Source: Haliclystus octoradiatus (taxonomy: Eukaryota; Cnidaria; Staurozoa; Stauromedusae; Haliclystidae). From it: a stretch of DNA of 64,000 nt. The notes under the pieces are model-generated. The model was not told the DNA's origin and made no database searches. It saw only the letters and a program-made list of their open reading frames with translations. Below, piece after piece: positions 1 through 64,000 of this stretch; position 1 is the first letter of the stretch; each line of letters starts with the position of its first letter. The stretch lies in the NCBI GenBank assembly GCA_916610825.1, contig CAKAJK010000003.1, positions 806,001 to 870,000 on the forward strand. Direction: 5' to 3'. The translations under genes and the position numbers were made by a program.

Positions 1-547
1 TTGCTCAACTATAACTCGAGTAATTAGTGTTTGAAGATTTCCCTTGTTTAAAGTTGAAAATTTGAAACTGTTAAATAGAAGTTTTGAATACAATATTCTT
101 GTTCAGAATTTTTCACTGATTCCAAATATACTATTTGTGAAACGATTAAGCCATTATAACTCGGGAAATTCTTGTTTTAGTTTGACGTACAAAACTTTGT
201 TAAAATTCGAAATTTCAAAACTGTACATTTTTAACTTTTGAGAACATTATTCTTGTTCAAAATTTTGCACTGATTCCAAATATACTATTTGTGAAATGAT
301 TGCTCAGCTATAACTCGAGTAATTCGTGTTTGAAGATTTCCTTTGTTTAAAGTTGAAAATTTGAAACTGTTAAATAGAGGTTTTGAATACAATATTCTTG
401 TTCAGAATTTTTCACTGATTCCAAATATACTATTTGTGAAACCATTACGCCATTATAACTCGAGAAATTCTTGTTTAGTTTGACGTACAAAACTTTGTTA
501 AAATTCGAAATTTCAAAACTGTACATTTTAAACTTTTGAGAACATTA

Positions 548-692
548 TTCTTGTTCAGAATTTTGCACTGATTCCAAATATACTATTTGTGAAATGATTG
601 ATCAACTATAACTCGAGTAATTCGTGTTTGAAGATTTCCTTTGTTTAAAGTTGAAAATTTGAAACTGTTAAATAGAAGTTTTGAATACAATA
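548..692. repeat. Reference A half-unit (145 bp)
   Basis: This is a representative A half. It begins with the shared core, carries g at core position 18 (attttgcactg) and continues with gaaatgattg, an XhoI-type ctcgag at half-unit positions 65-70, then gtaattcgtgtttgaag and an A/T-tract-rich tail. It aligns along its full length with the B half that follows: the core is nearly identical and the tails share aaattt-gaaactg against aaatttcaaaactg. The 9 bp length difference falls in the middle. Diagnostic sites that vary between A halves are cag/cac at position 11, gatc/gctc/aactc after the core, attcgtg/attagtg, the ttcctttg/ttcttttg/tttcccttg group, ctgttaaat/ctgtaaaat, and tagaag/tagagg/tataag. 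Confidence 0.95.
575..589. other. Conserved dyad in the A-half core
   Basis: The core contains a perfect inverted repeat with 6 bp arms and a 3 bp spacer, CAAATA-TAC-TATTTG, at half-unit positions 28-42. It is present in nearly every A half in the window. Arm changes recur only in particular types: tactacttg at about 7458, 8208 and 10752, and actgtttg in the P1 units of Domain IV. A homodimeric DNA-binding site is one possible meaning and local cruciform or non-B structure is another. Neither can be shown from sequence alone. Confidence 0.8.
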
Positions 693-719
693 TTCTTGTT
701 CAGAATTTTTTACTGATTC

Positions 720-734
720 CAAATATACTATTTG
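720..734. other. Conserved dyad in the B-half core
   Basis: The same 6-3-6 inverted repeat lies at the same offset in the B half, so it recurs alternately every 145 and 154 bp along the array. Its retention in both halves contrasts with the strong divergence of the halves downstream of position 50. The contrast suggests either selection on the core or continued gene conversion limited to the core. Confidence 0.8.
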
Positions 735-762
735 TGAAACGGTTACGCCATTATAACTCGAG

Positions 763-836
763 AAATTCTTGTTTTAGTTTGACATACAAAACTTTGTTAA
801 AATTCGAAATTTCAAAACTGTACATTTTAAACTTTT
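763..836. other. Run of short A and T tracts with roughly helical spacing
   Basis: In the B half, A or T runs of 3-4 bases are centred near half-unit positions 87, 97, 108, 117, 134 and 142, spacings of about 8-17 and mostly about 10 bp. The A tail shows a similar pattern. Such phasing is known to give intrinsic curvature and is common in satellites. Curvature here is inferred from spacing only. Confidence 0.5.
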
Positions 837-2938
837 GAGAACATTATTCTTGTTCAGAATTTTGCACTGATTCCAAATATACTATTTGTGAAATGATTGA
901 TCAACTATAACTCGAGTAATTCGTGTTTGAAGATTTCCTTTGTTTAAAGTTGAAAATTTGAAACTGTTAAATAGAGGTTTTGAATACAATATTCTTGTTC
1001 AGAATTTTTCACTGATTCCAAATATACTATTTGTGAAACGATTACGCCATTATAACTCGAGAAATTCTTGTTTTAGTTTGACGTACAAAACTTTGTTAAA
1101 ATTCGAAATTTCAAAACTGTACATTTTAAACTTTTGAGAACATTATTCTTGTTCAGAATTTTGCACTGATTCCAAATATACTATTTGTGAAATGATTGAT
1201 CAACTATAACTCGAGTAATTCGTGTTTGAAGATTTCCTTTGTTTAAAGTTGAAAATTTGAAACTGTTAAATAGAAGTTTTGAATACAATATTCTTGTTCA
1301 GAATTTTTCACTGATTCCAAATATACTATTTGTGAAACGATTACGCTATTATAACTCGGGAAATTCTTGTTTTAGTTTGACGTACAAAACTTTGTTAAAA
1401 TTCGAAATTTCAAAACTGTGCATTTTAAACTTTTGAGAACATTATTCTTGTTCAGAATTTTGCACTGATTCCAAATATACTATTTGTGAAATGATTGCTC
1501 AACTATAACTCGAGTAATTAGTGTTTGAAGATTTCCCTTGTTTAAAGTTGAAAATTTGAAACTGTTAAATAGAAGTTTTGAATACAATATTCTTGTTCAG
1601 AAATTTTCACTGATTCCAAATATACTATTTGTGAAACGATTAAGCCATTATAACTCGGGAAATTCTTGTTTTAGTTTGACGTACAAAACTTTGTTAAAAT
1701 TCGAAATTTCAAAACTGTACATTTTAAACTTTTGAGAACATTATTCTTGTTCAGAATTTTGCACTGATTCCAAATATACTATTTGTGAAATGATTGATCA
1801 ACTATAACTCGAGTAATTCGTGTTTGAAGATTTCCTTTGTTTAAAGTTGAAAATTTGAAACTGTTAAATAGAAGTTTTGAATACAATATTCTTGTTCAGA
1901 ATTTTTTACTGATTCCAAATATACTATTTGTGAAACGGTTACGCCATTATAACTCGAGAAATTCTTGTTTTAGTTTGACATACAAAACTTTGTTAAAATT
2001 CGAAATTTCAAAACTGTACATTTTAAACTTTTGAGAACATTATTCTTGTTCAGAATTTTGCACTGATTCCAAATATACTATTTGTGAAAGGATTGCTCAA
2101 CTATAACTCGAGTAATTAGTGTTTGAAGATTTCCCTTGTTTAAAGTTGAAAATTTGAAACTGTTAAATAGAAGTTTTGAATACAATATTCTTGTTCAGAA
2201 TTTTTCACTGATTCCAAATATACTATTTGTGAAACGATTAAGCCATTATAACTCGGGAAATTCTTGTTTTAGTTTGACGTACAAAACTTTGTTAAAATTC
2301 GAAATTTCAAAACTGTACATTTTTAACTTTTGAGAACATTATTCTTGTTCAAAATTTTGCACTGATTCCAAATATACTATTTGTGAAATGATTGCTCAGC
2401 TATAACTCGAGTAATTCGTGTTTGAAGATTTCCTTTGTTTAAAGTTGAAAATTTGAAACTGTTAAATAGAGGTTTTGAATACAATATTCTTGTTCAGAAT
2501 TTTTCACTGATTCCAAATATACTATTTGTGAAACGATTACGCCATTATAACTCGAGAAATTCTTGTTTAGTTTGACGTACAAAACTTTGTTAAAATTCGA
2601 AATTTCAAAACTGTACATTTTAAACTTTTGAGAACATTATTCTTGTTCAGAATTTTGCACTGATTCCAAATATACTATTTGTGAAATGATTGATCAACTA
2701 TAACTCGAGTAATTCGTGTTTGAAGATTTCCTTTGTTTAAAGTTGAAAATTTGAAACTGTTAAATAGAAGTTTTGAATACAATATTCTTGTTCAGAATTT
2801 TTTACTGATTCCAAATATACTATTTGTGAAACGGTTACGCCATTATAACTCGAGAAATTCTTGTTTTAGTTTGACATACAAAACTTTGTTAAAATTCGAA
2901 ATTTCAAAACTGTACATTTTAAACTTTTGAGAACATTA

Positions 2939-5926
2939 TTCTTGTTCAGAATTTTGCACTGATTCCAAATATACTATTTGTGAAAGGATTGCTCAACTAT
3001 AACTCGAGTAATTAGTGTTTGAAGATTTCCCTTGTTTAAAGTTGAAAATTTGAAACTGTTAAATAGAAGTTTTGAATACAATATTCTTGTTCAGAATTTT
3101 TCACTGATTCCAAATATACTATTTGTGAAACGATTAAGCCATTATAACTCGGGAAATTCTTGTTTTAGTTTGACGTACAAAACTTTGTTAAAATTCGAAA
3201 TTTCAAAACTGTACATTTTTAACTTTTGAGAACATTATTCTTGTTCAAAATTTTGCACTGATTCCAAATATACTATTTGTGAAATGATTGCTCAGCTATA
3301 ACTCGAGTAATTCGTGTTTGAAGATTTCCTTTGTTTAAAGTTGAAAATTTGAAACTGTTAAATAGAGGTTTTGAATACAATATTCTTGTTCAGAATTTTT
3401 CACTGATTCCAAATATACTATTTGTGAAACCATTACGCCATTATAACTCGAGAAATTCTTGTTTAGTTTGACGTACAAAACTTTGTTAAAATTCGAAATT
3501 TCAAAACTGTACATTTTAAACTTTTGAGAACATTATTCTTGTTCAGAATTTTGCACTGATTCCAAATATACTATTTGTGAAATGATTGATCAACTATAAC
3601 TCGAGTAATTCGTGTTTGAAGATTTCCTTTGTTTAAAGTTGAAAATTTGAAACTGTTAAATAGAAGTTTTGAATACAATATTCTTGTTCAGAATTTTTTA
3701 CTGATTCCAAATATACTATTTGTGAAACGGTTACGCCATTATAACTCGAGAAATTCTTGTTTTAGTTTGACATACAAAACTTTGTTAAAATTCGAAATTT
3801 CAAAACTGTACATTTTAAACTTTTGAGAACATTATTCTTGTTCAGAATTTTGCACTGATTCCAAATATACTATTTGTGAAATGATTGATCAACTATAACT
3901 CGAGTAATTCGTGTTTGAAGATTTCCTTTGTTTAAAGTTGAAAATTTGAAACTGTTAAATAGAGGTTTTGAATACAATATTCTTGTTCAGAATTTTTCAC
4001 TGATTCCAAATATACTATTTGTGAAACGATTACGCCATTATAACTCGAGAAATTCTTGTTTTAGTTTGACGTACAAAACTTTGTTAAAATTCGAAATTTC
4101 AAAACTGTACATTTTAAACTTTTGAGAACATTATTCTTGTTCAGAATTTTGCACTGATTCCAAATATACTATTTGTGAAATGATTGATCAACTATAACTC
4201 GAGTAATTCGTGTTTGAAGATTTCCTTTGTTTAAAGTTGAAAATTTGAAACTGTTAAATAGAAGTTTTGAATACAATATTCTTGTTCAGAATTTTTCACT
4301 GATTCCAAATATACTATTTGTGAAACGATTACGCTATTATAACTCGGGAAATTCTTGTTTTAGTTTGACGTACAAAACTTTGTTAAAATTCGAAATTTCA
4401 AAACTGTGCATTTTAAACTTTTGAGAACATTATTCTTGTTCAGAATTTTGCACTGATTCCAAATATACTATTTGTGAAATGATTGCTCAACTATAACTCG
4501 AGTAATTAGTGTTTGAAGATTTCCCTTGTTTAAAGTTGAAAATTTGAAACTGTTAAATAGAAGTTTTGAATACAATATTCTTGTTCAGAAATTTTCACTG
4601 ATTCCAAATATACTATTTGTGAAACGATTAAGCCATTATAACTCGGGAAATTCTTGTTTTAGTTTGACGTACAAAACTTTGTTAAAATTCGAAATTTCAA
4701 AACTGTACATTTTAAACTTTTGAGAACATTATTCTTGTTCAGAATTTTGCACTGATTCCAAATATACTATTTGTGAAATGATTGATCAACTATAACTCGA
4801 GTAATTCGTGTTTGAAGATTTCCTTTGTTTAAAGTTGAAAATTTGAAACTGTTAAATAGAAGTTTTGAATACAATATTCTTGTTCAGAATTTTTTACTGA
4901 TTCCAAATATACTATTTGTGAAACGGTTACGCCATTATAACTCGAGAAATTCTTGTTTTAGTTTGACATACAAAACTTTGTTAAAATTCGAAATTTCAAA
5001 ACTGTACATTTTAAACTTTTGAGAACATTATTCTTGTTCAGAATTTTGCACTGATTCCAAATATACTATTTGTGAAAGGATTACTCAACTATAACTCGAG
5101 TAATTAGTGTTTGAAGATTTCCCTTGTTTAAAGTTGAAAATTTGAAACTGTTAAATAGAAGTTTTGAATACAATATTCTTGTTCAGAATTTTTCACTGAT
5201 TCCAAATATACTATTTGTGAAACGATTAAGCCATTATAACTCGGGAAATTCTTGTTTTAGTTTGACGTACAAAACTTTGTTAAAATTCGAAATTTCAAAA
5301 CTGTACATTTTTAACTTTTGAGAACATTATTCTTGTTCAAAATTTTGCACTGATTCCAAATATACTATTTGTGAAATGATTGCTCAGCTATAACTCGAGT
5401 AATTCGTGTTTGAAGATTTCCTTTGTTTAAAGTTGAAAATTTGAAACTGTTAAATAGAGGTTTTGAATACAATATTCTTGTTCAGAATTTTTCACTGATT
5501 CCAAATATACTATTTGTGAAACGATTACGCCATTATAACTCGAGAAATTCTTGTTTAGTTTGACGTACAAAACTTTGTTAAAATTCGAAATTTCAAAACT
5601 GTACATTTTAAACTTTTGAGAACATTATTCTTGTTCAGAATTTTGCACTGATTCCAAATATACTATTTGTGAAATGATTGATCAACTATAACTCGAGTAA
5701 TTCGTGTTTGAAGATTTCCTTTGTTTAAAGTTGAAAATTTGAAACTGTTAAATAGAAGTTTTGAATACAATATTCTTGTTCAGAATTTTTTACTGATTCC
5801 AAATATACTATTTGTGAAACGGTTACGCCATTATAACTCGAGAAATTCTTGTTTTAGTTTGACATACAAAACTTTGTTAAAATTCGAAATTTCAAAACTG
5901 TACATTTTAAACTTTTGAGAACATTA
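2939..5926. repeat. 10-unit higher-order repeat, copy 2
   Basis: The order a-b*-c-d-e-f-c-a-b-c matches copy 1 at an offset of 2988 bp, including gaaaccatt near 3430. Few single-base differences are visible, for example ggattactc near 5081 against ggattgctc in copy 1. After this copy the order changes to d-e-f-d. Confidence 0.85.
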
Positions 5927-11168: not shown

Positions 11169-11767
11169 TTCTTGTTCAGAATTTTGCACTGATTCCAAAT
11201 ATACTATTTGTGAAATGATTGATCAACTATAACTCGAGTAATTCGTGTTTGAAGATTTCCTTTGTTTAAAGTTGAAAATTTGAAACTGTTAAATAGAAGT
11301 TTTGAATACAATATTCTTGTTCAGAATTTTTTCACTGATTCCAAATATACTATTTGTGAAACGGTTACGCCATTATAACTCGAGAAATTCTTGTTTTAGT
11401 TTGACATACAAAACTTTGTTAAAATTCGAAATTTCAAAACTGTACATTTTAAACTTTTGAGAACATTATTCTTGTTCAGAATTTTGCACTGATTCCAAAT
11501 ATACTATTTGTGAAATGATTGATCAACTATAACTCGAGTAATTCGTGTTTGAAGATTTCCTTTGTTTAAAGTTGAAAATTTGAAACTGTTAAATAGAGGT
11601 TTTGAATACAATATTCTTGTTCAGAATTTTTCACTGATTCCAAATATACTATTTGTGAAACGATTACGCCATTATAACTCGAGAAATTCTTGTTTTAGTT
11701 TGACGTACAAAACTTTGTTAAAATTCGAAATTTCAAAACTGTACATTTTAAACTTTTGAGAACATTA
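11169..11767. repeat. Unit c with a 1 bp insertion, then unit d
   Basis: The c unit has an extra t in the run just before the core cactg (near 11331). It is the only 1 bp insertion I found and makes this unit 300 bp. The d unit that follows is typical. These two units form the edge of Domain I. Confidence 0.7.
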
Positions 11768-29569: not shown

Positions 29570-31362
29570 TTCTTGTTCACAATTTTGCACTGATTCCAAA
29601 TATACTATTTGTGAAATGATTGCTCAACTATAACTCGAGTAATTCGTGTTTGAAGATTTCCTTTGTTTAAAGTTGAAAATTTGAAACTGTAAAATAGAAG
29701 TTTTGAATACAATATTCTTGTTAAGAATTTTTCACTGATTCCAAATATACTATTTGTGAAACGATTACGCCATTATAACTCGAGAAATTGTTGTTTTAGT
29801 TTGACGTACAAAACTTTGTTAAAATTCGAAATTTCAAAACTGTGCATTTTAAACTTTTGAGAACATTATTCTTGTTCAGAATTTTGCACTGATTCCAAAT
29901 ATACTATTTGTGAAATGATTGCTCAACTATAACTCGAGTAATTCGTGTTTGAAGATTTCTTTTGTTTAAAGTTGAAAATTTGAAACTGTAAAATATAAGT
30001 TTTGAATACAATATTCTTGTTCAGAATTTTTCACTGATTCCAAATATACTATTTGTGAAACGATTACGCCATTATAACTCGAGAAATTGTTGTTTTAGTT
30101 TGACGTACAAAACTTTGTTAAAATTCGAAATTTCAAAACTGTGCATTTTAAACTTTTGAGAACATTATTCTTGTTCAGAATTTTGCACTGATTCCAAATA
30201 TACTATTTGTGAAATGATTGCTCAACTATAACTCGAGTAATTCGTGTTTGAAGATTTCTTTTGTTTAAAGTTGAAAATTTGAAACTGTAAAATATAAGTT
30301 TTGAATACAATATTCTTGTTCAGAATTTTTCACTGATTCCAAATATACTATTTGTGAAACGATTACGCCATTATAACTTGAGAAATTGTTGTTTTAGTTT
30401 GACGTACAAAACTTGGTTAAAATTCGAAATTTCAAAACTGTGCATTTTAAACTTTTGAGAACATTATTCTTGTTCAGAATTTTGCACTGATTCCAAATAT
30501 ACTATTTGTGAAATGATAACTCAACTATAACTCGAGTAATTCGTGTTTGAAGATTTCTTTTGTTTAAAGTTGAAAATTTGAAACTGTAAAATATAAGTTT
30601 TGAATACAATATTCTTGTTCAGAATTTTTCACTGATTCCAAATATACTATTTGTGAAACGATTACGCCATTATAACTCGAGAAATTGTTGTTTTAGTTTG
30701 ACGTACAAAACTTTGTTAAAATTCAAAATTTCAAAACTGTGCATTTTAAACTTTTGAGAACATTATTCTTGTTCAGAATTTTGCACTGATTCCAAATATA
30801 CTATTTGTGAACTGATTGCTCAACTATAACTCGAGTAATTCGTGTTTGAAGATTTCCTTTGTTTAAAGTTGAAAATTTGAAACTGTAAAATAGAAGTTTT
30901 GAATACAATATTCTTGTTCAGAATTTTTCACTGATTCCAAATATACTATTTGTGAAACGATTACGCTTTTATAACTCGAGAAATTGTTGTTTTAGTTTGA
31001 CGTACAAAACTTTGTTAAAATTCGAAATTTCAAAACTGTGCATTTTAAACTTTTGAGAACATTATTCTTGTTCAGAATTTTGCACTGATTCCAAATATAC
31101 TATTTGTGAAATGATTGCTCAACTATAACTCGAGTAATTCGTGTTTGAAGATTTCTTTTGTTTAAAGTTGAAAATTTAAACTGTAAAATATAAGTTTTGA
31201 ATACAATATTCTTGTTCAGAATTTTTCACTGATTCCAAATATACTATTTGTGAAACGATTACGCCATTATAACTCGAGAAATTCTTGTTTTAGTTTGACG
31301 TACAAAACTTTGTTAAAATTCGAAATTTCAAAACTGTACATTTTAAACTTTTGAGAACTCTA
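29570..31362. repeat. Domain III block, version Y (1793 bp)
   Basis: U1 to U6. Marks of Y are gtacaaaacttgg in U3, attcaaaattt in U4 (near 30724), and in place of the X-type U5 a unit with gaactgattg (near 30810), cctttg, tagaag and cgctttt. Confidence 0.85.
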
Positions 31363-33155
31363 TTCTTGTTCACAATTTTGCACTGATTCCAAATATACTA
31401 TTTGTGAAATGATTGCTCAACTATAACTCGAGTAATTCGTGTTTGAAGATTTCCTTTGTTTAAAGTTGAAAATTTGAAACTGTAAAATAGAAGTTTTGAA
31501 TACAATATTCTTGTTAAGAATTTTTCACTGATTCCAAATATACTATTTGTGAAACGATTACGCCATTATAACTCGAGAAATTGTTGTTTTAGTTTGACGT
31601 ACAAAACTTTGTTAAAATTCGAAATTTCAAAACTGTGCATTTTAAACTTTTGAGAACATTATTCTTGTTCAGAATTTTGCACTGATTCCAAATATACTAT
31701 TTGTGAAATGATTGCTCAACTATAACTCGAGTAATTCGTGTTTGAAGATTTCTTTTGTTTAAAGTTGAAAATTTGAAACTGTAAAATATAAGTTTTGAAT
31801 ACAATATTCTTGTTCAGAATTTTTCACTGATTCCAAATATACTATTTGTGAAACGATTACGCCATTATAACTCGAGAAATTGTTGTTTTAGTTTGACGTA
31901 CAAAACTTTGTTAAAATTCGAAATTTCAAAACTGTGCATTTTAAACTTTTGAGAACATTATTCTTGTTCAGAATTTTGCACTGATTCCAAATATACTATT
32001 TGTGAAATGATTGCTCAACTATAACTCGAGTAATTCGTGTTTGAAGATTTCTTTTGTTTAAAGTTGAAAATTTGAAACTGTAAAATATAAGTTTTGAATA
32101 CAATATTCTTGTTCAGAATTTTTCACTGATTCCAAATATACTATTTGTGAAACGATTACGCCATTATAACTTGAGAAATTGTTGTTTTAGTTTGACGTAA
32201 AAAACTTGGTTAAAATTCGAAATTTCAAAACTGTGCATTTTAAACTTTTGAGAACATTATTCTTGTTCAGAATTTTGCACTGATTCCAAATATACTATTT
32301 GTGAAATGATAACTCAACTATAACTCGAGTAATTCGTGTTTGAAGATTTCTTTTGTTTAAAGTTGAAAATTTGAAACTGTAAAATATAAGTTTTGAATAC
32401 AATATTCTTGTTCAGAATTTTTCACTGATTCCAAATATACTATTTGTGAAACGATTACGCCATTATAACTCGAGAAATTGTTGTTTTAGTTTGACGTACA
32501 AAACTTTGTTAAAATTCGAAATTTCAAAACTGTGCATTTTAAACTTTTGAGAACATTATTCTTGTTCAGAATTTTGCACTGATTCCAAATATACTATTTG
32601 TGAAATGATTGCTCAACTATAACTCGAGTAATTCGTGTTTGAAGATTTCTTTCGTTTAAAGTTGAAAATTTGAAACTGTAAAATATAAGTTTTGAATACA
32701 ATATTCTTGTTCAGAATTTTTCACTGATTCCAAATATACTATTTGTGAAACGATTACGCCATTATAACTCGAGAAATTGTTGTTTTAGTTTGACGTACAA
32801 AACTTTGTTAAAATTCGAAATTTCAAAACTGTGCATTTTAAACTTTTGAGAACATTATTCTTGTTCAGAATTTTGCACTGATTCCAAATATACTATTTGT
32901 GAAATGATTGCTCAACTATAACTCGAGTAATTCGTGTTTGAAGATTTCTTTTGTTTAAAGTTGAAAATTTAAACTGTAAAATATAAGTTTTGAATACAAT
33001 ATTCTTGTTCAGAATTTTTCACTGATTCCAAATATACTATTTGTGAAACGATTACGCCATTATAACTCGAGAAATTCTTGTTTTAGTTTGACGTACAAAA
33101 CTTTGTTAAAATTCGAAATTTCAAAACTGTACATTTTAAACTTTTGAGAACTCTA
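31363..33155. repeat. Domain III block, version X (1793 bp)
   Basis: U1 to U6 with the X marks gtaaaaaacttgg in U3 and ttctttcg in U5. Nearly identical to the X block 3586 bp to its left. Confidence 0.85.
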
Positions 33156-34350
33156 TTCTTGTTCACAATTTTGCACTGATTCCAAATATACTATTTGTGA
33201 AATGATTGCTCAACTATAACTCGAGTAATTCGTGTTTGAAGATTTCCTTTGTTTAAAGTTGAAAATTTGAAACTGTAAAATAGAAGTTTTGAATACAATA
33301 TTCTTGTTAAGAATTTTTCACTGATTCCAAATATACTATTTGTGAAACGATTACGCCATTATAACTCGAGAAATTGTTGTTTTAGTTTGACGTACAAAAC
33401 TTTGTTAAAATTCGAAATTTCAAAACTGTGCATTTTAAACTTTTGAGAACATTATTCTTGTTCAGAATTTTGCACTGATTCCAAATATACTATTTGTGAA
33501 ATGATTGCTCAACTATAACTCGAGTAATTCGTGTTTGAAGATTTCTTTTGTTTAAAGTTGAAAATTTGAAACTGTAAAATATAAGTTTTGAATACAATAT
33601 TCTTGTTCAGAATTTTTCACTGATTCCAAATATACTATTTGTGAAACGATTACGCCATTATAACTCGAGAAATTGTTGTTTTAGTTTGACGTACAAAACT
33701 TTGTTAAAATTCGAAATTTCAAAACTGTGCATTTTAAACTTTTGAGAACATTATTCTTGTTCAGAATTTTGCACTGATTCCAAATATACTATTTGTGAAA
33801 TGATTGCTCAACTATAACTCGAGTAATTCGTGTTTGAAGATTTCTTTCGTTTAAAGTTGAAAATTTGAAACTGTAAAATATAAGTTTTGAATACAATATT
33901 CTTGTTCAGAATTTTTCACTGATTCCAAATATACTATTTGTGAAACGATTACGCCATTATAACTCGAGAAATTGTTGTTTTAGTTTGACGTACAAAACTT
34001 TGTTAAAATTCGAAATTTCAAAACTGTGCATTTTAAACTTTTGAGAACATTATTCTTGTTCAGAATTTTGCACTGATTCCAAATATACTATTTGTGAAAT
34101 GATTGCTCAACTATAACTCGAGTAATTCGTGTTTGAAGATTTCTTTTGTTTAAAGTTCAAAATTTAAACTTTAAAATATAAGTTTTGAATACAATATTCT
34201 TGTTCAGAATTTTTCACTGATTCCAAATATACTATTTGTGAAACGATTACGCCATTATAACTCGAGAAATTCTTGTTTTAGTTTGACGTACAAAACTTTG
34301 TTAAAATTCGAAATTTCAAAACTGTACATTTTAAACTTTTGAGAACTCTA
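33156..34350. repeat. Domain III short block U1-U2-U5-U6 (1195 bp)
   Basis: Four units; U5 has the X mark ttctttcg, and U3-U4 are absent, as after an in-register loss of two units. U6 has private changes (gttcaaaattt, aactttaaaat) near 34158. It is an extra X-type block that breaks strict X/Y alternation. Confidence 0.8.
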
Positions 34351-36143
34351 TTCTTGTTCACAATTTTGCACTGATTCCAAATATACTATTTGTGAAATGA
34401 TTGCTCAACTATAACTCGAGTAATTCGTGTTTGAAGATTTCCTTTGTTTAAAGTTGAAAATTTGAAACTGTAAAATAGAAGTTTTGAATACAATATTCTT
34501 GTTCAGAATTTTTCACTGATTCCAAATATACTATTTGTGAAACGATTACGCCATTATAACTCGAGAAATTGTTGTTTTAGTTTGACGTACAAAACTTTGT
34601 TAAAATTCGAAATTTCAAAACTGTGCATTTTAAACTTTTGAGAACATTATTCTTGTTCAGAATTTTGCACTGATTCCAAATATACTATTTGTGAAATGAT
34701 TGCTCAACTATAACTCGAGTAATTCGTGTTTGAAGATTTCTTTTGTTTAAAGTTGAAAATTTGAAACTGTAAAATATAAGTTTTGAATACAATATTCTTG
34801 TTCAGAATTTTTCACTGATTCCAAATATACTATTTGTGAAACGATTACGCCATTATAACTCGAGAAATTGTTGTTTTAGTTTGACGTACAAAACTTTGTT
34901 AAAATTCGAAATTTCAAAACTGTGCATTTTAAACTTTTGAGAACATTATTCTTGTTCAGAATTTTGCACTGATTCCAAATATACTATTTGTGAAATGATT
35001 GCTCAACTATAACTCGAGTAATTCGTGTTTGAAGATTTCTTTTGTTTAAAGTTGAAAATTTGAAACTGTAAAATATAAGTTTTGAATACAATATTCTTGT
35101 TCAGAATTTTTCACTGATTCCAAATATACTATTTGTGAAACGATTACGCCATTATAACTTGAGAAATTGTTGTTTTAGTTTGACGTACAAAACTTGGTTA
35201 AAATTCGAAATTTCAAAACTGTGCATTTTAAACTTTTGAGAACATTATTCTTGTTCAGAATTTTGCACTGATTCCAAATATACTATTTGTGAAATGATAA
35301 CTCAACTATAACTCGAGTAATTCGTGTTTGAAGATTTCTTTTGTTTAAAGTTGAAAATTTGAAACTGTAAAATATAAGTTTTGAATACAATATTCTTGTT
35401 CAGAATTTTTCACTGATTCCAAATATACTATTTGTGAAACGATTACGCCATTATAACTCGAGAAATTGTTGTTTTAGTTTGACGTACAAAACTTTGTTAA
35501 AATTCAAAATTTCAAAACTGTGCATTTTAAACTTTTGAGAACATTATTCTTGTTCAGAATTTTGCACTGATTCCAAATATACTATTTGTGAACTGATTGC
35601 TCAACTATAACTCGAGTAATTCGTGTTTGAAGATTTCCTTTGTTTAAAGTTGAAAATTTGAAACTGTAAAATAGAAGTTTTGAATACAATATTCTTGTTC
35701 AGAATTTTTCACTGATTCCAAATATACTATTTGTGAAACGATTACGCTTTTATAACTCGAGAAATTGTTGTTTTAGTTTGACGTACAAAACTTTGTTAAA
35801 ATTCGAAATTTCAAAACTGTGCATTTTAAACTTTTGAGAACATTATTCTTGTTCAGAATTTTGCACTGATTCCAAATATACTATTTGTGAAATGATTGCT
35901 CAACTATAACTCGAGTAATTCGTGTTTGAAGATTTCTTTTGTTTAAAGTTGAAAATTTAAACTGTAAAATATAAGTTTTGAATACAATATTCTTGTTCAG
36001 AATTTTTCACTGATTCCAAATATACTATTTGTGAAACGATTACGCCATTATAACTCGAGAAATTCTTGTTTTAGTTTGACGTACAAAACTTTGTTAAAAT
36101 TCGAAATTTCAAAACTGTACATTTTAAACTTTTGAGAACTCTA
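34351..36143. repeat. Domain III block, version Y (1793 bp)
   Basis: U1 to U6 with Y marks: attcaaaattt near 35504, gaactgattg near 35590, cgctttt near 35746. Its U1 lacks the usual gttaagaat and has gttcagaat. Confidence 0.85.
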
Positions 36144-37936
36144 TTCTTGTTCACAATTTTGCACTGATTCCAAATATACTATTTGTGAAATGATTGCTCA
36201 ACTATAACTCGAGTAATTCGTGTTTGAAGATTTCCTTTGTTTAAAGTTGAAAATTTGAAACTGTAAAATAGAAGTTTTGAATACAATATTCTTGTTAAGA
36301 ATTTTTCACTGATTCCAAATATACTATTTGTGAAACGATTACGCCATTATAACTCGAGAAATTGTTGTTTTAGTTTGACGTACAAAACTTTGTTAAAATT
36401 CGAAATTTCAAAACTGTGCATTTTAAACTTTTGAGAACATTATTCTTGTTCAGAATTTTGCACTGATTCCAAATATACTATTTGTGAAATGATTGCTCAA
36501 CTATAACTCGAGTAATTCGTGTTTGAAGATTTCTTTTGTTTAAAGTTGAAAATTTGAAACTGTAAAATATAAGTTTTGAATACAATATTCTTGTTCAGAA
36601 TTTTTCACTGATTCCAAATATACTATTTGTGAAACGATTACGCCATTATAACTCGAGAAATTGTTGTTTTAGTTTGACGTACAAAACTTTGTTAAAATTC
36701 GAAATTTCAAAACTGTGCATTTTAAACTTTTGAGAACATTATTCTTGTTCAGAATTTTGCACTGATTCCAAATATACTATTTGTGAAATGATTGCTCAAC
36801 TATAACTCGAGTAATTCGTGTTTGAAGATTTCTTTTGTTTAAAGTTGAAAATTTGAAACTGTAAAATATAAGTTTTGAATACAATATTCTTGTTCAGAAT
36901 TTTTCACTGATTCCAAATATACTATTTGTGAAACGATTACGCCATTATAACTTGAGAAATTGTTGTTTTAGTTTGACGTAAAAAACTTGGTTAAAATTCG
37001 AAATTTCAAAACTGTGCATTTTAAACTTTTGAGAACATTATTCTTGTTCAGAATTTTGCACTGATTCCAAATATACTATTTGTGAAATGATAACTCAACT
37101 ATAACTCGAGTAATTCGTGTTTGAAGATTTCTTTTGTTTAAAGTTGAAAATTTGAAACTGTAAAATATAAGTTTTTAATACAATATTCTTGTTCAGAATT
37201 TTTCACTGATTCCAAATATACTATTTGTGAAACGATTACGCCATTATAACTCGAGAAATTGTTGTTTTAGTTTGACGTACAAAACTTTGTTAAAATTCGA
37301 AATTTCAAAACTGTGCATTTTAAACTTTTGAGAACATTATTCTTGTTCAGAATTTTGCACTGATTCCAAATATACTATTTGTGAAATGATTGCTCAACTA
37401 TAACTCGAGTAATTCGTGTTTGAAGATTTCTTTCGTTTAAAGTTGAAAATTTGAAACTGTAAAATATAAGTTTTGAATACAATATTCTTGTTCAGAATTT
37501 TTCACTGATTCCAAATATACTATTTGTGAAACGATTACGCCATTATAACTCGAGAAATTGTTGTTTTAGTTTGACGTACAAAACTTTGTTAAAATTCGAA
37601 ATTTCAAAACTGTGCATTTTAAACTTTTGAGAACATTATTCTTGTTCAGAATTTTGCACTGATTCCAAATATACTATTTGTGAAATGATTGCTCAACTAT
37701 AACTCGAGTAATTCGTGTTTGAAGATTTCTTTTGTTTAAAGTTGAAAATTTAAACTGTAAAATATAAGTTTTGAATACAATATTCTTGTTCAGAATTTTT
37801 CACTGATTCCAAATATACTATTTGTGAAACGATTACGCCATTATAACTCGAGAAATTCTTGTTTTAGTTTGACGTACAAAACTTTGTTAAAATTCGAAAT
37901 TTCAAAACTGTACATTTTAAACTTTTGAGAACTCTA
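36144..37936. repeat. Domain III block, version X (1793 bp)
   Basis: U1 to U6 with X marks gtaaaaaacttgg near 36977 and ttctttcg near 37431. A private change gtttttaata lies near 37172 in U4. Confidence 0.85.
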
Positions 37937-42865: not shown

Positions 42866-43164
42866 TTCTTGTTCACAATTTTGCACTGATTCCAAATATA
42901 CTATTTGTGAAATGATTGCTCAACTATAACTCGAGTAATTCGTGTTTGAAGATTTCCTTTGTTTAAAGTTGAAAATTTGAAACTGTAAAATAGAAGTTTT
43001 GAATACAATATTCTTGTTAAGAATTTTTCACTGATTCCAAATATACTATTTGTGAAACGATTACGCCATTATAACTCGAGAAATTGTTGTTTTAGTTTGA
43101 CGTACAAAACTTTGTTAAAATTCGAAATTTCAAAACTGTGCATTTTAAACTTTTGAGAACATTA
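40628..43164. repeat. 2537 bp tandem repeat, copy 1
   Basis: P5-P6-P7-Q1-Q2-Q3-Q4 (with extra A half) and a U1-like unit (gttaagaat). The length is eight units plus 145 bp. Because it includes one odd half, the repeat is not a whole number of dimers. It overlaps the P/Q segment entry because the two duplications were superimposed. Confidence 0.85.
42567..42711. repeat. Extra half-unit: B core joined to A body
   Basis: t at position 18 (B mark) and then gaactgattgctc (A body), 145 bp long. The switch lies between core positions 19 and 47. Two A-bodied halves stand in a row. Confidence 0.85.
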
Positions 43165-45701
43165 TTCTTGTTCAGAATTTTGCACTGATTCCAAATATAC
43201 TATTTGTGAAATGATTGCTCAACTATAACTCGAGTAATTCGTGTTTGAAGATTTCTTTTGTTTAAAGTTGAAAATTTGAAACTGTAAAATATAAGTTTTG
43301 AATACAATATTCTTGTTCAGAATTTTTCACTGATTCCAAATATACTATTTGTGAAACGATTACGCCATTATAACTCGAGAAATTCTTGTTTTAGTTTGAC
43401 GTACAAAACTTTGTTAAAATTCGAAATTTCAAAACTGTACATTTTAAACTTTTGAGAACATTATTCTTGTTCACAATTTTGCACTGATTCCAAATATACT
43501 ATTTGTGAAATGATTGCTCAACTATAACTCGAGTAATTCGTGTTTGAAGATTTCCTTTGTTTAAAGTTGAAAATTTGAAACTGTAAAATAGAAGTTTTGA
43601 ATACAATATTCTTGTTCAGAATTTTTCACTGATTCCAAATATACTATTTGTGAAACGATTACGCCATTATAACTCGAGAAATTGTTGTTTTAGTTTGACG
43701 TACAAAACTTTGTTAAAATTCGAAATTTCAAAACTGTGCATTTTAAACTTTTGAGAACATTATTCTTGTTCACAATTTTGCACTGATTCCAAATATACTA
43801 TTTGTGAAATGATTGCTCAACTATAACTCGAGTAATTCGTGTTTGAAGATTTCTTTTGTTTAAAGTTGAAAATTTGAAACTGTAAAATAGAAGTTTTGAA
43901 TACAATATTCTTGTTCAGAATTTTTCACTGATTCCAAATATACTATTTGTGAAACGATTACGCCCTTATAACTCGAGAAATTCTTGTTTTAGTTTGACGT
44001 GCAAAACTTTGTTAAAATTCGAAATTTCAAAACTGTACATTTTAAACTTTTGAGAACTCAATTCTTGTTCACAATTTTGCACTGATTCCAAATATACTAT
44101 TTGTGAAATGATTGCTCAACTATAACTCGAGTAATTCGTGTTTGAAGATTTCTTTTGTTTAAAGTTGAAAATTTGAAACTGTAAAATATAAGTTTTGAAT
44201 ACAATATTCTTGTTCAGAATTTTTCACTGATTCCAAATATACTATTTGTGAAACGATTACGCCATTATAACTCGAGAAATTCTTGTTTTAGTTTGACGTA
44301 CAAAACTTTGTTAAAATTCGAAATTTCAAAACTGTACATTTTAAACTTTTGAGAACATTATTCTTGTTCACAATTTTGCACTGATTCCAAATATACTATT
44401 TGTGAAATGATTGCTCAACTATAACTCGAGTAATTCGTGTTTGAAGATTTCCTTTGTTTAAAGTTGAAAATTTGAAACTGTAAAATAGAAGTTTTGAATA
44501 CAATATTCTTGTTCAGAATTTTTCACTGATTCCAAATATACTATTTGTGAAACGATTACGCCATTATAACTCGAGAAATTGTTGTTTTAGTTTGACGTAC
44601 AAAACTTTGTTAAAATTCGAAATTTCAAAACTGTGCATTTTAAACTTTTGAGAACATTATTCTTGTTCACAATTTTGCACTGATTCCAAATATACTATTT
44701 GTGAAATGATTGCTCAACTATAACTCGAGTAATTCGTGTTTGAAGATTTCTTTTGTTTAAAGTTGAAAATTTGAAACTGTAAAATAGAAGTTTTGAATAC
44801 AATATTCTTGTTCAGAATTTTTCACTGATTCCAAATATACTATTTGTGAAACGATTACGCCCTTATAACTCGAGAAATTCTTGTTTTAGTTTGACGTACA
44901 AAACTTTGTTAAAATTCGAAATTTCTAAACTGTACATTTTAAACTTTTGAGAACTCAATTCTTGTTCACAATTTTGCACTGATTCCAAATATACTATTTG
45001 TGAAATGATTGCTCAACTATAACTCGAGTAATTCGTGTTTGAAGATTTCTTTTGTTTAAAGTTGAAAATTTGAAACTGTAAAATAGAAGTTTTGAATACA
45101 ATATTCTTGTTCAGAATTTTTCACTGATTCCAAATATACTATTTGTGAACTGATTGCTCAACTATAACTCGAGTAATTCGTGTTTGAAGATTTCCTTTGT
45201 TTAAAGTTGAAAATTTGAAACTGTAAAATAGAGGTTTTGAATACAATATTCTTGTTCAGAATTTTTCACTGATTCCAAATATACTATTTGTGAAACGATT
45301 ACGCCATTATAACTCGAGAAATTCTTGTTTTAGTTTGACGTACAAAACTTTGTTAAAATTCGAAATTTCAAAACTGTACATTTTAAACTTTTGAGAACTC
45401 TATTCTTGTTCACAATTTTGCACTGATTCCAAATATACTATTTGTGAAATGATTGCTCAACTATAACTCGAGTAATTCGTGTTTGAAGATTTCCTTTGTT
45501 TAAAGTTGAAAATTTGAAACTGTAAAATAGAAGTTTTGAATACAATATTCTTGTTAAGAATTTTTCACTGATTCCAAATATACTATTTGTGAAACGATTA
45601 CGCCATTATAACTCGAGAAATTGTTGTTTTAGTTTGACGTACAAAACTTTGTTAAAATTCGAAATTTCAAAACTGTGCATTTTAAACTTTTGAGAACATT
45701 A
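43165..45701. repeat. 2537 bp tandem repeat, copy 2
   Basis: Same order as copy 1, including gaaatttctaaac near 44925 and the odd A half at 45104-45248. Similarity continues to about 45921, where the unit after copy 2 has aaattgttg and the unit after copy 1 has aaattcttg. Confidence 0.85.
45104..45248. repeat. Extra half-unit: B core joined to A body
   Basis: Copy of the 42567 joint within the second 2537 bp repeat. Confidence 0.85.
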
Positions 45702-46897
45702 TTCTTGTTCAGAATTTTGCACTGATTCCAAATATACTATTTGTGAAATGATTGCTCAACTATAACTCGAGTAATTCGTGTTTGAAGATTTCTTTTGTTT
45801 AAAGTTGAAAATTTGAAACTGTAAAATATAAGTTTTGAATACAATATTCTTGTTCAGAATTTTTCACTGATTCCAAATATACTATTTGTGAAACGATTAC
45901 GCCATTATAACTCGAGAAATTGTTGTTTTAGTTTGACGTACAAAACTTTGTTAAAATTCGAAATTTCAAAACTGTGCATTTTAAACTTTTGAGAACATTA
46001 TTCTTGTTCAGAATTTTGCACTGATTCCAAATATACTATTTGTGAAATGATTGCTCAACTATAACTCGAGTAATTCGTGTTTGAAGATTTCTTTTGTTTA
46101 AAGTTGAAAATTTGAAACTGTAAAATATAAGTTTTGAATACAATATTCTTGTTCAGAATTTTTCACTGATTCCAAATATACTATTTGTGAAACGATTACG
46201 CCATTATAACTTGAGAAATTGTTGTTTTAGTTTGACGTACAAAACTTGGTTAAAATTCGAAATTTCAAAACTGTGCATTTTAAACTTTTGAGAACATTAT
46301 TCTTGTTCAGAATTTTGCACTGATTCCAAATATACTATTTGTGAAATGATAACTCAACTATAACTCGAGTAATTCGTGTTTGAAGATTTCTTTTGTTTAA
46401 AGTTGAAAATTTGAAACTGTAAAATATAAGTTTTGAATACAATATTCTTGTTCAGAATTTTTCACTGATTCCAAATATACTATTTGTGAAACGATTACGC
46501 CATTATAACTCGAGAAATTGTTGTTTTAGTTTGACGTACAAAACTTTGTTAAAATTCGAAATTTCAAAACTGTGCATTTTAAACTTTTGAGAACATTATT
46601 CTTGTTCAGAATTTTGCACTGATTCCAAATATACTATTTGTGAACTGATTGCTCAACTATAACTCGAGTAATTCGTGTTTGAAGATTTCCTTTGTTTAAA
46701 GTTGAAAATTTGAAACTGTAAAATAGAAGTTTTGAATACAATATTCTTGTTCAGAATTTTTCACTGATTCCAAATATACTATTTGTGAAACGATTACGCC
46801 ATTATAACTCGAGAAATTGTTGTTTTAGTTTGACGTACAAAACTTTGTTAAAATTCGAAATTTCAAAACTGTACATTTTAAACTTTTGAGAACATTA
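45702..46897. repeat. Domain III fragment (U2-U3-U4 and Y-type U5) inside Domain IV
   Basis: The cttgag/aacttgg unit (near 46210-46248), the gataactc unit and a gaactgattg unit follow a U1-like unit, in the order of a Y block. They differ from Y blocks in having attcgaaattt in U4 and cgccatt in the U5 substitute. The fragment ends at a P1 unit, as Domain III itself does at 39431. Confidence 0.8.
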
Positions 46898-49800
46898 TTC
46901 TTGTTCAAAATTTTGCACTGATTCCAAATATACTGTTTGTGAAATGATTGCTGAACTATAACTCGAGTAATTCGTGTTTGAAGATTTCCTTTGTTTAAAG
47001 TTGAAAATTTGAAACTGTAAAATAGAAGTTTTGAATACAATATTCTTGTTCAAAATTTTTCACTGATTCCAAATATACTATTTGTGAAACGATTACGCCA
47101 TTATAACTCGAGAAATTGTTGTTTTAGTTTGACGTACAAAACTTTGTTAAAATTCGAAATTTCAAAACTGTACATTTTAAACTTTTGAGAACATTATTCT
47201 TGTTCACAATTTTGCACTGATTCCAAATATACTATTTGTGAAATGATTGCTCAACTATAACTCGAGTAATTCGTGTTTGAAGATTTCCTTTGTTTAAAGT
47301 TGAAAATTTGAAACTGTAAAATAGAAGTTTTGAATACAATATTCTTGTTCAGAATTTTTCACTGATTCCAAATATACTATTTGTGAAACGATTACGCCAT
47401 TATAACTCGAGAAATTGTTGTTTTAGTTTGACGTACAAAACTTTGTTAAAATTCGAAATTTCAAAACTGTGCATTTTAAACTTTTGAGAACATTATTCTT
47501 GTTCACAATTTTGCACTGATTCCAAATATACTATTTGTGAAATGATTGCTCAACTATAACTCGAGTAATTCGTGTTTGAAGATTTCTTTTGTTTAAAGTT
47601 GAAAATTTGAAACTGTAAAATAGAAGTTTTGAATACAATATTCTTGTTCAGAATTTTTCACTGATTCCAAATATACTATTTGTGAAACGATTACGCCCTT
47701 ATAACTCGAGAAATTCTTGTTTTAGTTTGACGTGCAAAACTTTGTTAAAATTCGAAATTTCAAAACTGTGCATTTTAAACTTTTGAGAACATTATTCTTG
47801 TTCAGAATTTTGCACTGATTCCAAATATACTATTTGTGAAATGATTGCTCAACTATAACTCGAGTAATTCGTGTTTGAAGATTTCCTTTGTTTAAAGTTG
47901 AAAATTTGAAACTGTAAAATATAAGTTTTGAATACAATATTCTTGTTCAGAATTTTTCACTGATTCCAAATATACTATTTGTGAAACGATTACGCCATTA
48001 TAACTCGAGAAATTGTTGTTTTAGTTTGACGTACAAAACTTTGTTAAAATTCGAAATTTCAAAACTGTGCATTTTAAACTTTTGAGAACATTATTCTTGT
48101 TCAGAATTTTGCACTGATTCCAAATATACTATTTGTGAAATGATTGCTCAACTATAACTCGAGTAATTCGTGTTTGAAGATTTCTTTTGTTTAAAGTTGA
48201 AAATTTGAAACTGTAAAATATAAGTTTTGAATACAATATTCTTGTTCAGAATTTTTCACTGATTCCAAATATACTATTTGTGAAACGATTACGCCATTAT
48301 AACTCGAGAAATTCTTGTTTTAGTTTGACGTACAAAACTTTGTTAAAATTCGAAATTTCAAAACTGTACATTTTAAACTTTTGAGAACATTATTCTTGTT
48401 CACAATTTTGCACTGATTCCAAATATACTATTTGTGAAATGATTGCTCAACTATAACTCGAGTAATTCGTGTTTGAAGATTTCCTTTGTTTAAAGTTGAA
48501 AATTTGAAACTGTAAAATAGAAGTTTTGAATACAATATTCTTGTTCAGAATTTTTCACTGATTCCAAATATACTATTTGTGAAACGATTACGCCATTATA
48601 ACTCGAGAAATTGTTGTTTTAGTTTGACGTACAAAACTTTGTTAAAATTCGAAATTTCAAAACTGTGCATTTTAAACTTTTGAGAACATTATTCTTGTTC
48701 ACAATTTTGCACTGATTCCAAATATACTATTTGTGAAATGATTGCTCAACTATAACTCGAGTAATTCGTGTTTGAAGATTTCTTTTGTTTAAAGTTGAAA
48801 ATTTGAAACTGTAAAATAGAAGTTTTGAATACAATATTCTTGTTCAGAATTTTTCACTGATTCCAAATATACTATTTGTGAAACGATTACGCCCTTATAA
48901 CTCGAGAAATTCTTGTTTTAGTTTGACGTGCAAAACTTTGTTAAAATTCGAAATTTCAAAACTGTACATTTTAAACTTTTGAGAACTCAATTCTTGTTCA
49001 CAATTTTGCACTGATTCCAAATATACTATTTGTGAAATGATTGCTCAACTATAACTCGAGTAATTCGTGTTTGAAGATTTCTTTTGTTTAAAGTTGAAAA
49101 TTTGAAACTGTAAAATATAAGTTTTGAATACAATATTCTTGTTCAGAATTTTTCACTGATTCCAAATATACTATTTGTGAAACGATTACGCCATTATAAC
49201 TCGAGAAATTCTTGTTTTAGTTTGACGTACAAAACTTTGTTAAAATTCGAAATTTCAAAACTGTACATTTTAAACTTTTGAGAACATTATTCTTGTTCAC
49301 AATTTTGCACTGATTCCAAATATACTATTTGTGAAATGATTGCTCAACTATAACTCGAGTAATTCGTGTTTGAAGATTTCCTTTGTTTAAAGTTGAAAAT
49401 TTGAAACTGTAAAATAGAAGTTTTGAATACAATATTCTTGTTCAGAATTTTTCACTGATTCCAAATATACTATTTGTGAAACGATTACGCCATTATAACT
49501 CGAGAAATTGTTGTTTTAGTTTGACGTACAAAACTTTGTTAAAATTCGAAATTTCAAAACTGTGCATTTTAAACTTTTGAGAACATTATTCTTGTTCACA
49601 ATTTTGCACTGATTCCAAATATACTATTTGTGAAATGATTGCTCAACTATAACTCGAGTAATTCGTGTTTGAAGATTTCTTTTGTTTAAAGTTGAAAATT
49701 TGAAACTGTAAAATAGAAGTTTTGAATACAATATTCTTGTTCAGAATTTTTCACTGATTCCAAATATACTATTTGTGAAACGATTACGCCCTTATAACTC

Positions 49801-50331
49801 GAGAAATTCTTGTTTTAGTTTGACGTACAAAACTTTGTTAAAATTCGAAATTTCTAAACTGTACATTTTAAACTTTTGAGAACTCAATTCTTGTTCACAA
49901 TTTTGCACTGATTCCAAATATACTATTTGTGAAATGATTGCTCAACTATAACTCGAGTAATTCGTGTTTGAAGATTTCTTTTGTTTAAAGTTGAAAATTT
50001 GAAACTGTAAAATAGAAGTTTTGAATACAATATTCTTGTTCAGAATTTTTCACTGATTCCAAATATACTATTTGTGAACTGATTGCTCAACTATAACTCG
50101 AGTAATTCGTGTTTGAAGATTTCCTTTGTTTAAAGTTGAAAATTTGAAACTGTAAAATAGAGGTTTTGAATACAATATTCTTGTTCAGAATTTTTCACTG
50201 ATTCCAAATATACTATTTGTGAAACGATTACGCCATTATAACTCGAGAAATTCTTGTTTTAGTTTGACGTACAAAACTTTGTTAAAATTCGAAATTTCAA
50301 AACTGTACATTTTAAACTTTTGAGAACATTA
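46898..50331. repeat. P1-P7, Q1-Q4 segment, copy 2 (3434 bp)
   Basis: Matches 39432-42865 at an offset of 7466 bp, including the odd A half (50033-50177) with tagagg after it. The copies part at the end: copy 1 ends in aactcta, copy 2 in aacatta. Confidence 0.85.
50033..50177. repeat. Extra half-unit: B core joined to A body
   Basis: Copy of the same joint 7466 bp from the one at 42567. Confidence 0.85.
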
Positions 50332-51817: not shown

Positions 51818-51927
51818 TTCTTGTTCAGAATTTTTCACTGATTCCAAATATACTATTTGTGAAACGATTACGCCATTATAACTCGAGAAATTGTTGTTTT
51901 AGTTTGACGTACAAAACTTTGTTAAAA
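51818..51927. repeat. Truncated B half, 110 bp, with a 44 bp terminal deletion
   Basis: The B half of a U4 unit runs normally to ttaaaattc and then continues directly as ttgttcag of the next core. Compared with the intact copy (54465-54618) the last 41 bases of the half and the first 3 of the next core are gone. The sequence attc stands at both edges of the lost segment, so the joint has 4 bp microhomology. It is the only breakpoint I found that is not explained by exchange at homologous positions. Confidence 0.9.
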
Positions 51928-52081
51928 TTCTTGTTCAGAATTTTTCACTGATTCCAAATATACTATTTGTGAAACGATTACGCTTTTATAACTCGAGAAA
52001 TTGTTGTTTTAGTTTGACGTACAAAACTTTGTTAAAATTCGAAATTTCAAAACTGTACATTTTAAACTTTTGAGAACATTA
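51928..52081. repeat. Extra B half (cgctttt) after the truncated half
   Basis: B follows B, and the half carries cgctttt and ctgtacatt. It corresponds to 54619-54772 in the intact block, so the odd half came before the 44 bp deletion. Confidence 0.85.
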
Positions 52082-60598: not shown

Positions 60599-60743
60599 TT
60601 CTTGTTCACAATTTTCCACTGATTCCAAATATACTATTTGTGAAATGATTGCTCAACTATAACTCGAGTAATTCGTGTTTGAAGATTTCTTTTGTTTAAA
60701 GTTGAAAATTTGAAACTGTAAAATAGAAGTTTTGAATACAATA

Positions 60744-61794: not shown

Positions 61795-62238
61795 TTCTTG
61801 TTCAGAATTTTGCACTGATTCCAAATATACTGTTTGTGAAATGATTGCTGAACTATAACTCGAGTAATTCGTGTTTGAAGATTTCCTTTGTTTAAAGTTG
61901 AAAATTTGAAACTGTAAAATAGAAGTTTTGAATACAATATTCTTGTTCAAAATTTTTCACTGATTCCAAATATACTATTTGTGAAACGATTACGCCATTA
62001 TAACTCGAGAAATTGTTGTTTTAGTTTGACGTACAAAACTTTGTTAAAATTCGAAATTTCAAAACTGTACATTTTAAACTTTTGAGAACTCAATTCTTGT
62101 TCACAATTTTCCACTGATTCCAAATATACTATTTGTGAAATGATTGCTCAACTATAACTCGAGTAATTCGTGTTTGAAGATTTCTTTTGTTTAAAGTTGA
62201 AAATTTGAAACTGTAAAATAGAAGTTTTGAATACAATA

Positions 62239-62383
62239 TTCTTGTTCAGAATTTTTCACTGATTCCAAATATACTATTTGTGAACTGATTGCTCAACTAT
62301 AACTCGAGTAATTCGTGTTTGAAGATTTCTTTTGTTTAAAGTTGAAAATTTGAAACTGTAAAATAGAAGTTTTGAATACAATA
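62239..62383. repeat. Extra half-unit: B core joined to A body
   Basis: gaactgattgctc joint in the second 1495 bp repeat. Confidence 0.85.
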
Positions 62384-63135
62384 TTCTTGTTCAGAATTTT
62401 TCACTGATTCCAAATATACTATTTGTGAAACGATTACGCCATTATAACTCGAGAAATTGTTGTTTTAGTTTGACGTACAAAACTTTGTTAAAATTCGAAA
62501 TTTCAAAACTGTGCATTTTAAACTTTTGAGAACATTATTCTTGTTCAGAATTTTGCACTGATTCCAAATATACTATTTGTGAAATGATTGCTCAACTATA
62601 ACTCGAGTAATTCGTGTTTGAAGATTTCTTTTGTTTAAAGTTGAAAATTTGAAACTGTAAAATATAAGTTTTGAATACAATATTCTTGTTCAGAATTTTT
62701 CACTGATTCCAAATATACTATTTGTGAAACGATTACGCCATTATAACTTGAGAAATTGTTGTTTTAGTTTGACGTACAAAACTTGGTTAAAATTCGAAAT
62801 TTCAAAACTGTGCATTTTAAACTTTTGAGAACATTATTCTTGTTCAGAATTTTGCACTGATTCCAAATATACTATTTGTGAAATGATAACTCAACTATAA
62901 CTCGAGTAATTCGTGTTTGAAGATTTCTTTTGTTTAAAGTTGAAAATTTGAAACTGTAAAATATAAGTTTTGAATACAATATTCTTGTTCAGAATTTTTC
63001 ACTGATTCCAAATATACTATTTGTGAAACGATTACGCCATTATAACTCGAGAAATTGTTGTTTTAGTTTGACGTACAAAACTTTGTTAAAATTCGAAATT
63101 TCAAAACTGTGCATTTTAAACTTTTGAGAACATTA

Positions 63136-63289
63136 TTCTTGTTCAGAATTTTTCACTGATTCCAAATATACTATTTGTGAAACGATTACGCTTTTATAAC
63201 TCGAGAAATTGTTGTTTTAGTTTGACGTACAAAACTTTGTTAAAATTCGAAATTTCAAAACTGTACATTTTAAACTTTTGAGAACATTA
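63136..63289. repeat. Extra B half (cgctttt)
   Basis: Same arrangement in the second 1495 bp repeat. Confidence 0.85.
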
Positions 63290-63588
63290 TTCTTGTTCAG
63301 AATTTTGCACTGATTCCAAATATACTGTTTGTGAAATGATTGCTGAACTATAACTCGAGTAATTCGTGTTTGAAGATTTCCTTTGTTTAAAGTTGAAAAT
63401 TTGAAACTGTAAAATAGAAGTTTTGAATACAATATTCTTGTTCAAAATTTTTCACTGATTCCAAATATACTATTTGTGAAACGATTACGCCATTATAACT
63501 CGAGAAATTGTTGTTTTAGTTTGACGTACAAAACTTTGTTAAAATTCGAAATTTCAAAACTGTACATTTTAAACTTTTGAGAACATTA

Positions 63589-64000
63589 TTCTTGTTCACA
63601 ATTTTGCACTGATTCCAAATATACTATTTGTGAAATGATTGCTCAACTATAACTCGAGTAATTCGTGTTTGAAGATTTCCTTTGTTTAAAGTTGAAAATT
63701 TGAAACTGTAAAATAGAAGTTTTGAATACAATATTCTTGTTCAGAATTTTTCACTGATTCCAAATATACTATTTGTGAAACGATTACGCCATTATAACTC
63801 GAGAAATTGTTGTTTTAGTTTGACGTACAAAACTTTGTTAAAATTCGAAATTTCAAAACTGTGCATTTTAAACTTTTGAGAACATTATTCTTGTTCACAG
63901 TTTTGCACTGATTCCAAATATACTATTTGTGAAATGATTGCTCAACTATAACTCGAGTAATTCGTGTTTGAAGATTTCTTTTGTTTAAAGTTGAAAATTT
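63589..64000. repeat. P2 unit and start of the next unit, cut by the window end
   Basis: A P2-type unit (cacaatttt, cctttg, aaattgttg, ctgtgcatt) is followed by an A half starting at 63888 that runs off the window. A private change ttcacagttttg lies near 63895. Confidence 0.75.

Follow-up and report, generated by a model that had tools for sequence, protein, structure and literature searches.

A homogeneous 299-bp dimeric satellite with layered higher-order repeats on unplaced scaffolds of Haliclystus octoradiatus

The stretch of DNA analysed here, hereafter called the window, comprises 64,000 nt of the Haliclystus octoradiatus genome (C12:806001-870000, contig CAKAJK010000003.1, forward strand), and it consists from end to end of a satellite whose 299-bp unit pairs a 154-bp monomer, A, with a related 145-bp monomer, B, in alternation. 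On balance we believe that the window is part of a heterochromatic satellite block of ~2.2 Mb at a single locus in this genome. The likeliest role of the block would be passive or structural, within heterochromatin of one chromosome that is (peri)centromeric or knob-like. In kind the array is ordinary non-coding satellite DNA, a long head-to-tail array of units that are alike and present in high copy number.

To delimit the monomers we took the segments between successive copies of a 26-bp box, allowing up to four substitutions in the window. The box occurs 428 times; of the 427 spacings, 214 measure 154 or 153 bp (type A), 212 measure 145, 144 or 146 bp (type B) and one measures 110 bp. This regular spacing leaves no space for an insert, and every letter of the window is an A, C, G or T. 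Tandem Repeats Finder (TRF) reported the 299-bp period at 1-51,930 and 51,927-63,969, and the self-identity of the window was 0.896 at a shift of 299 against 0.21-0.30 at shifts of 149-151. The A and B consensus sequences are identical in 119 of 157 columns (76%), while the 204 AB dimers, which cover 60,983 bases and represent 63 distinct sequences, have a mean pairwise identity of 97.6% (20,706 pairs). A sequence-only reading of the window had described it as wholly one dimeric and homogeneous satellite with no foreign insertion, and all of this is borne out. GC content stays within 0.263-0.270 in every 2-kb bin, no open reading frame exceeds 71 aa, and all 65 open reading frames of at least 60 aa begin with TTG. 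On the plus strand, the first whole A monomer (154 bp) lies at 116..269 and the first whole B monomer (145 bp) at 270..414, as given by the box-to-box segmentation. Box spacing also revealed a B monomer of 146 bp at 11189..11334, a one-base length variant, and, together with TRF, the shortened 110-bp monomer at 51838..51947, the sole monomer of the window outside the two length classes; both lie on the plus strand.

The 427 monomers comprise only 76 distinct sequences, and their order repeats with a period that shifts along the window. Near the start the period is 20 monomers, with identical 2,094-bp copies beginning at 1 and 2,989 (1..5082, plus strand, spacing 2,988). Around 18-27 kb it is 31 monomers, and around 30-39 kb it is 32, at which shift 86% of the monomers are identical; here the longest exact repeat of the window, 2,671 bp, is found at 29,724 and 34,505 (29724..37175, plus strand, spacing 4,781). 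A period of 33 monomers follows around 42-51 kb, with 2,379 bp exact at 43,020 and 47,949 (43020..50327, plus strand, spacing 4,929), and a further exact repeat measures 2,273 bp. Blocks of many monomers are thus more alike than neighbouring monomers, as in a higher-order-repeat satellite, and these layered repeats record how multi-kb blocks have recently been copied. The A/B alternation is further broken by nine A-A and eight B-B junctions (phase breaks). The earlier account, in which one 299-bp unit and a few rearrangements explain every base, was too simple in view of the layered higher-order repeats; it also passed over the 17 phase breaks.

The source genome (assembly jrHalOcto1.1) comprises 261.86 Mb in 33 contigs. 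The scaffold of the window, C12 (933,410 bp), is unplaced and not among the nine chromosomes; the summed length of scaffolds C1-C11 exceeds that of the nine chromosomes by about 0.06 Mb. On C12 the satellite was found at all 15 ten-kb slices, at both ends and at one further point, and the array continues far outside the window. It was likewise present at every sampled point of C16 (six points), C17 (four), C18 (three), C19 (two) and C23 (two). On C13 a 59-bp satellite extends to ~856,720 and is followed by the 299-bp satellite to the scaffold end, and on C21 the 299-bp satellite runs from 9,501 to the end, with a pentanucleotide repeat at 8,001-8,300. Assuming that the unsampled stretches are alike, the array totals ~2.16 Mb (0.8% of the assembly) on these eight unplaced scaffolds. 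Genome-wide, the 26-bp box gave 13,864 matches at no more than one mismatch and its reversed-letter control gave none. The motifs ATTCCAAATATNNTATTTGT and ATTCTTGTTCAGAATTTT gave 13,317 and 9,954 exact matches, where the slice rates predict 12,742 and 10,208 on seven of the eight scaffolds (C21 uncounted). To judge from the contig order of the match lists, the chromosome-bearing scaffolds C1-C11 hold no exact match of either motif, since the lists of the 59-bp repeat and of a 178-bp repeat start on C1 and those of the two motifs on C12. It should be noted that the lists seem to give forward matches first within a contig, because the known minus-strand copies of C12 are absent there. The exact box had no match in virus and prokaryote contigs.

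Fourteen of the 16 ends of the eight scaffolds lie in satellite, and only two array edges were found, at ~856,720 of C13 against the 59-bp satellite and between 8,300 and 9,501 of C21 against the pentamer. On C12 the array reads on the minus strand up to 696,581 and on the plus strand thereafter, the single inversion seen. Its arms share one distinct monomer of 23 and 12, which is too few for a recent fold-back. The two edges agree in sense, as a single inversion requires. A likely, though unproven, chain of scaffolds is C15, C13, (C18) and C12 with the inversion, then C16, C17, C19 and C23 in some order, and finally C21 reversed. The simplest reading is that the 299-bp satellite occupies one genomic locus. 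At the C13 edge the copies are arranged A-A-B and are more diverged (identity 0.947 for A and 0.956 for B) than those of the window (0.984 for both), as expected where exchange is rarer. The multi-kb exact copies, the small number of distinct monomers and the more diverged edge copies together support the earlier suggestion of a homogenised satellite. In some parts the composition is unlike that of the window, as C12:400001-560000 and C16:180001 are rich in B-B junctions (17-30 per 10 kb).

The phase breaks were studied in a larger set, the window plus 19 ten-kb slices, with 787 A and 837 B monomers (1,624). All of these are 153-154 or 144-147 bp long, as pieces of other lengths were left out (four odd short ones, of 128 bp twice, 134 and 110 bp); nearly all monomers, then, retain their full length. 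The A and B consensus sequences agree in 50 of 52 columns of a shared block, exemplified at 95..146 on the plus strand with its box at 116-141, and in 69 of 105 columns elsewhere; a P value of 8e-6 for the block is optimistic, because the block was picked with the alignment in view. In 140 of the 180 A-A and B-B breaks the type switch falls within an interval around the box, between the third base before it and the bases after it (37 of 64 A-A and 103 of 116 B-B breaks). In 26 of the 64 A-A breaks the base preceding the box already shows the B type, which puts the switch further upstream. Unequal homologous exchange through the longest shared tract would be the simplest account of phase breaks at this block.

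The box itself varies little. Variant frequencies in the window are 0.0006 and 0.0017 inside the box and 0.019 and 0.021 outside it, a 12- to 30-fold deficit for the box, and in the larger set the frequency in the box is still about ten times lower than outside. Selection on the box was considered and not retained: the tests on the 1,624 monomers are weak (P of 0.043 and 0.068 for frequency, 0.046 and 0.18 for alleles per column). Protein binding, exchange that keeps the copies alike and chance may each explain the conservation of the block. By eye the box also resembles a hammerhead ribozyme core with a stem, but an Rfam search of window positions 1-2000 returned 17 hits with E values of 10 or less, of which none was a hammerhead and none exceeded its gathering score. 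A DNA hairpin was discarded as well, with unremarkable z-scores of -1.30, -1.51 and +1.56 for three pieces.

We propose that an old duplication gave rise to the two monomers, and that the AB dimer may then have spread as sister or homologous arrays underwent unequal exchange or a related kind of recombination. What was copied would mostly have been blocks of 6 to 33 monomers, and the shifting higher-order repeats would be the result. Exchange of the A/B register through the ~50-bp block still common to both would yield phase breaks that leave whole monomers.

One neighbour is the 59-bp satellite, which was seen at nine points in the middle of chromosome 1 (39.98 Mb), where it forms a block of ~0.97 Mb between ~21.09 and 22.06 Mb that is flanked on either side by other sequence. 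Chromosome 1 contains 42 exact copies of a 29-base word of this satellite, which is a candidate marker of the (peri)centromere of that chromosome. This satellite has higher-order periods of its own (157, 177, 216, 275 and 452 bp). Along scaffold C15 the 178-bp repeat (1-20,300) gives way to other sequence, and this in turn to the 59-bp satellite in the right part, oriented as on C13. We considered C15 as a second haplotype of the chromosome 1 flank, but a 300-base piece of it has no match on C1. The 178-bp repeat (457 forward and 133 reverse exact matches) forms many short tandem arrays along C1, C2, C4, C5 and C6, unlike the 299-bp satellite.

Several points weigh against a single heterochromatic locus formed by such exchange. 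The gaps between the satellite scaffolds are unbridged, C16 to C23 could stand in any order, and there may be two or three loci whose edges have been lost. An attempt to place the locus via the pentamer of the C21 edge failed, because this repeat is present on C1 too. Outside the window we read slices rather than whole scaffolds, and as the motif searches were exact, diverged chromosomal copies would escape them. Phase breaks are copied by descent, hence the 140 cases among 180 do not count as independent events, and the single diagnostic base is imperfect, with the other base at 11 of 709 A-B and 7 of 709 B-A junctions and a third base at four more. Both the heterochromatic state and the single locus are read from sequence rather than from chromatin or cytology.

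The sequence-only reading had linked the array to centromeres, and this is opposed for a satellite of all centromeres but may hold for one chromosome. A satellite serving all nine chromosomes should leave edges on the chromosome scaffolds; none are seen on C1-C11, where the 59-bp, 178-bp and pentamer repeats are listed, and two edges were found in total against the eighteen expected. We regard this reading, in which all array edges would have been lost in scaffolding, as very improbable, although arrays lost in this way would be invisible to the motif search. In its favour, the 299-bp satellite is the most abundant long-unit tandem repeat met in this genome, and Melters et al. (PMC4053949) nominate the tandem repeat of highest abundance as candidate for the centromere; they also describe their method as not designed for chromosome-specific repeats. 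The ~2.16 Mb of the 299-bp satellite compare with roughly 2 Mb or more of the 59-bp satellite on C13, C15 and C1, a figure that is not a full census. A functional centromere of one chromosome, with CENP-A nucleosomes on part of the array and other sequences, e.g. the 59-bp satellite on chromosome 1, used elsewhere, is a more serious though still minority possibility. The megabase size, the higher-order repeats, the nucleosome-scale monomers (145 and 154 bp) and the homogeneous core with a diverged edge would all suit it, as would the occurrence of the 59-bp satellite both in mid chromosome 1 and next to the 299-bp array. The medusozoan Hydractinia has a CENP-A gene (PMC5011920). However, nothing seen in the array ties it to a kinetochore, and the CENP-B box pattern TTCGNNNNANNCGGG has no match in the doubled dimer consensus. 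Satellites of the knob type can be equally large and clean, and maize knob repeats outnumber the centromere repeat there (PMC4053949). Going further, we speculate, with considerable doubt, that centromeres are chromosome-specific here, with the 299-bp array on one chromosome, the 59-bp satellite on chromosome 1 and the ~50-bp block as both protein-binding site and recombination register.

That the array is wholly unplaced, and that C15, C13 and C21 link it to other unplaced sequence, would also fit a supernumerary (B) chromosome or a block on one haplotype only, and the 300-base piece of C15 finds no near-identical match beyond itself, 81% on C5 being the next best. Yet long satellites without unique Hi-C contacts are expected to be unplaced anyway, and we find this explanation highly unlikely. 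Hardly credible is a contaminant or assembly artefact, as might be suspected from the restriction to unplaced scaffolds and the inversion in C12. C13 joins the array to the 59-bp satellite, whose 29-base word is on chromosome 1, the arms of the inversion are too different for a recent fold-back, and the assembly derives from HiFi data with a QV of 56.6 (PMC9975415). We retain the single heterochromatic block as our preferred reading.

Some further observations concern the assembly at large. A similar CCGATCC-rich repeat occurs at the start of C14 and at C15:120001 and is perhaps a dispersed element. TTAGGG telomere repeats stand at scaffold ends (C1:1-591 and the starts of C10 and C11), with an internal stretch at 4.089 Mb of C1. 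There is a short TTAGG array at 11.186 Mb of C5, but the insect-type TTAGG as the telomere repeat proved wrong, as the scaffold ends carry TTAGGG. On C33 a mitochondrial COX1, in which TGA encodes Trp, faces COX2 head to head, a gene order that points to Medusozoa.

The 299-bp family looks undescribed in the literature searched, as the sequence-only reading had thought possible, and among the papers listed there none describes a satellite or a centromere for Staurozoa. No paper found there had both Staurozoa and centromere, and where Haliclystus and satellite occurred together, satellite was a generic word in the portions of text examined. The words centromere and satellite are absent from PMC10719294 and PMC13137736, which use the H. 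octoradiatus genome or cite its genome note. The two array edges, the inversion and the layered higher-order repeats offer a usable start for cytogenetic and chromatin study. A chromosome-specific centromere here, if true, would be the first centromere candidate for Staurozoa in that literature. Should one chromosome alone carry a megabase satellite, abundance would once more prove an unreliable pointer to centromeres.

Satellites that combine diverged monomer pairs with higher-order repeats are a familiar kind (PMC4053949), and the comparisons with maize, Hydra and primates that follow draw on the same paper. The knob repeats of maize are very abundant and homogeneous, occupy few heterochromatic places and are not the centromere repeat; the 299-bp array would resemble them in these respects, the comparison covering abundance, homogeneity and number of sites rather than chromosome position or drive. 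The candidate centromere repeat of Hydra is likewise an abundant medusozoan tandem repeat, but of 183 bp as against 299 (145+154) bp, and was compared by description rather than by sequence. Arrays of the primate alpha-satellite type share the diverged monomers in fixed order, the multi-kb higher-order repeats and the homogeneous core with a diverged edge. Unlike them, the 299-bp array has no CENP-B box, apparently occupies one locus and changes its periods within tens of kb, and the likeness is one of architecture only, with no sequence relation known. In Meloidogyne satellite DNAs (PMC3694981) the short conserved box at the monomer junctions resembles the CENP-B box, whereas the block found here is longer (~50 bp) and has no such pattern. 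As in our array, however, this conserved block lies within diverged monomers, the monomer types switch there, and simple and higher-order arrays occur together.

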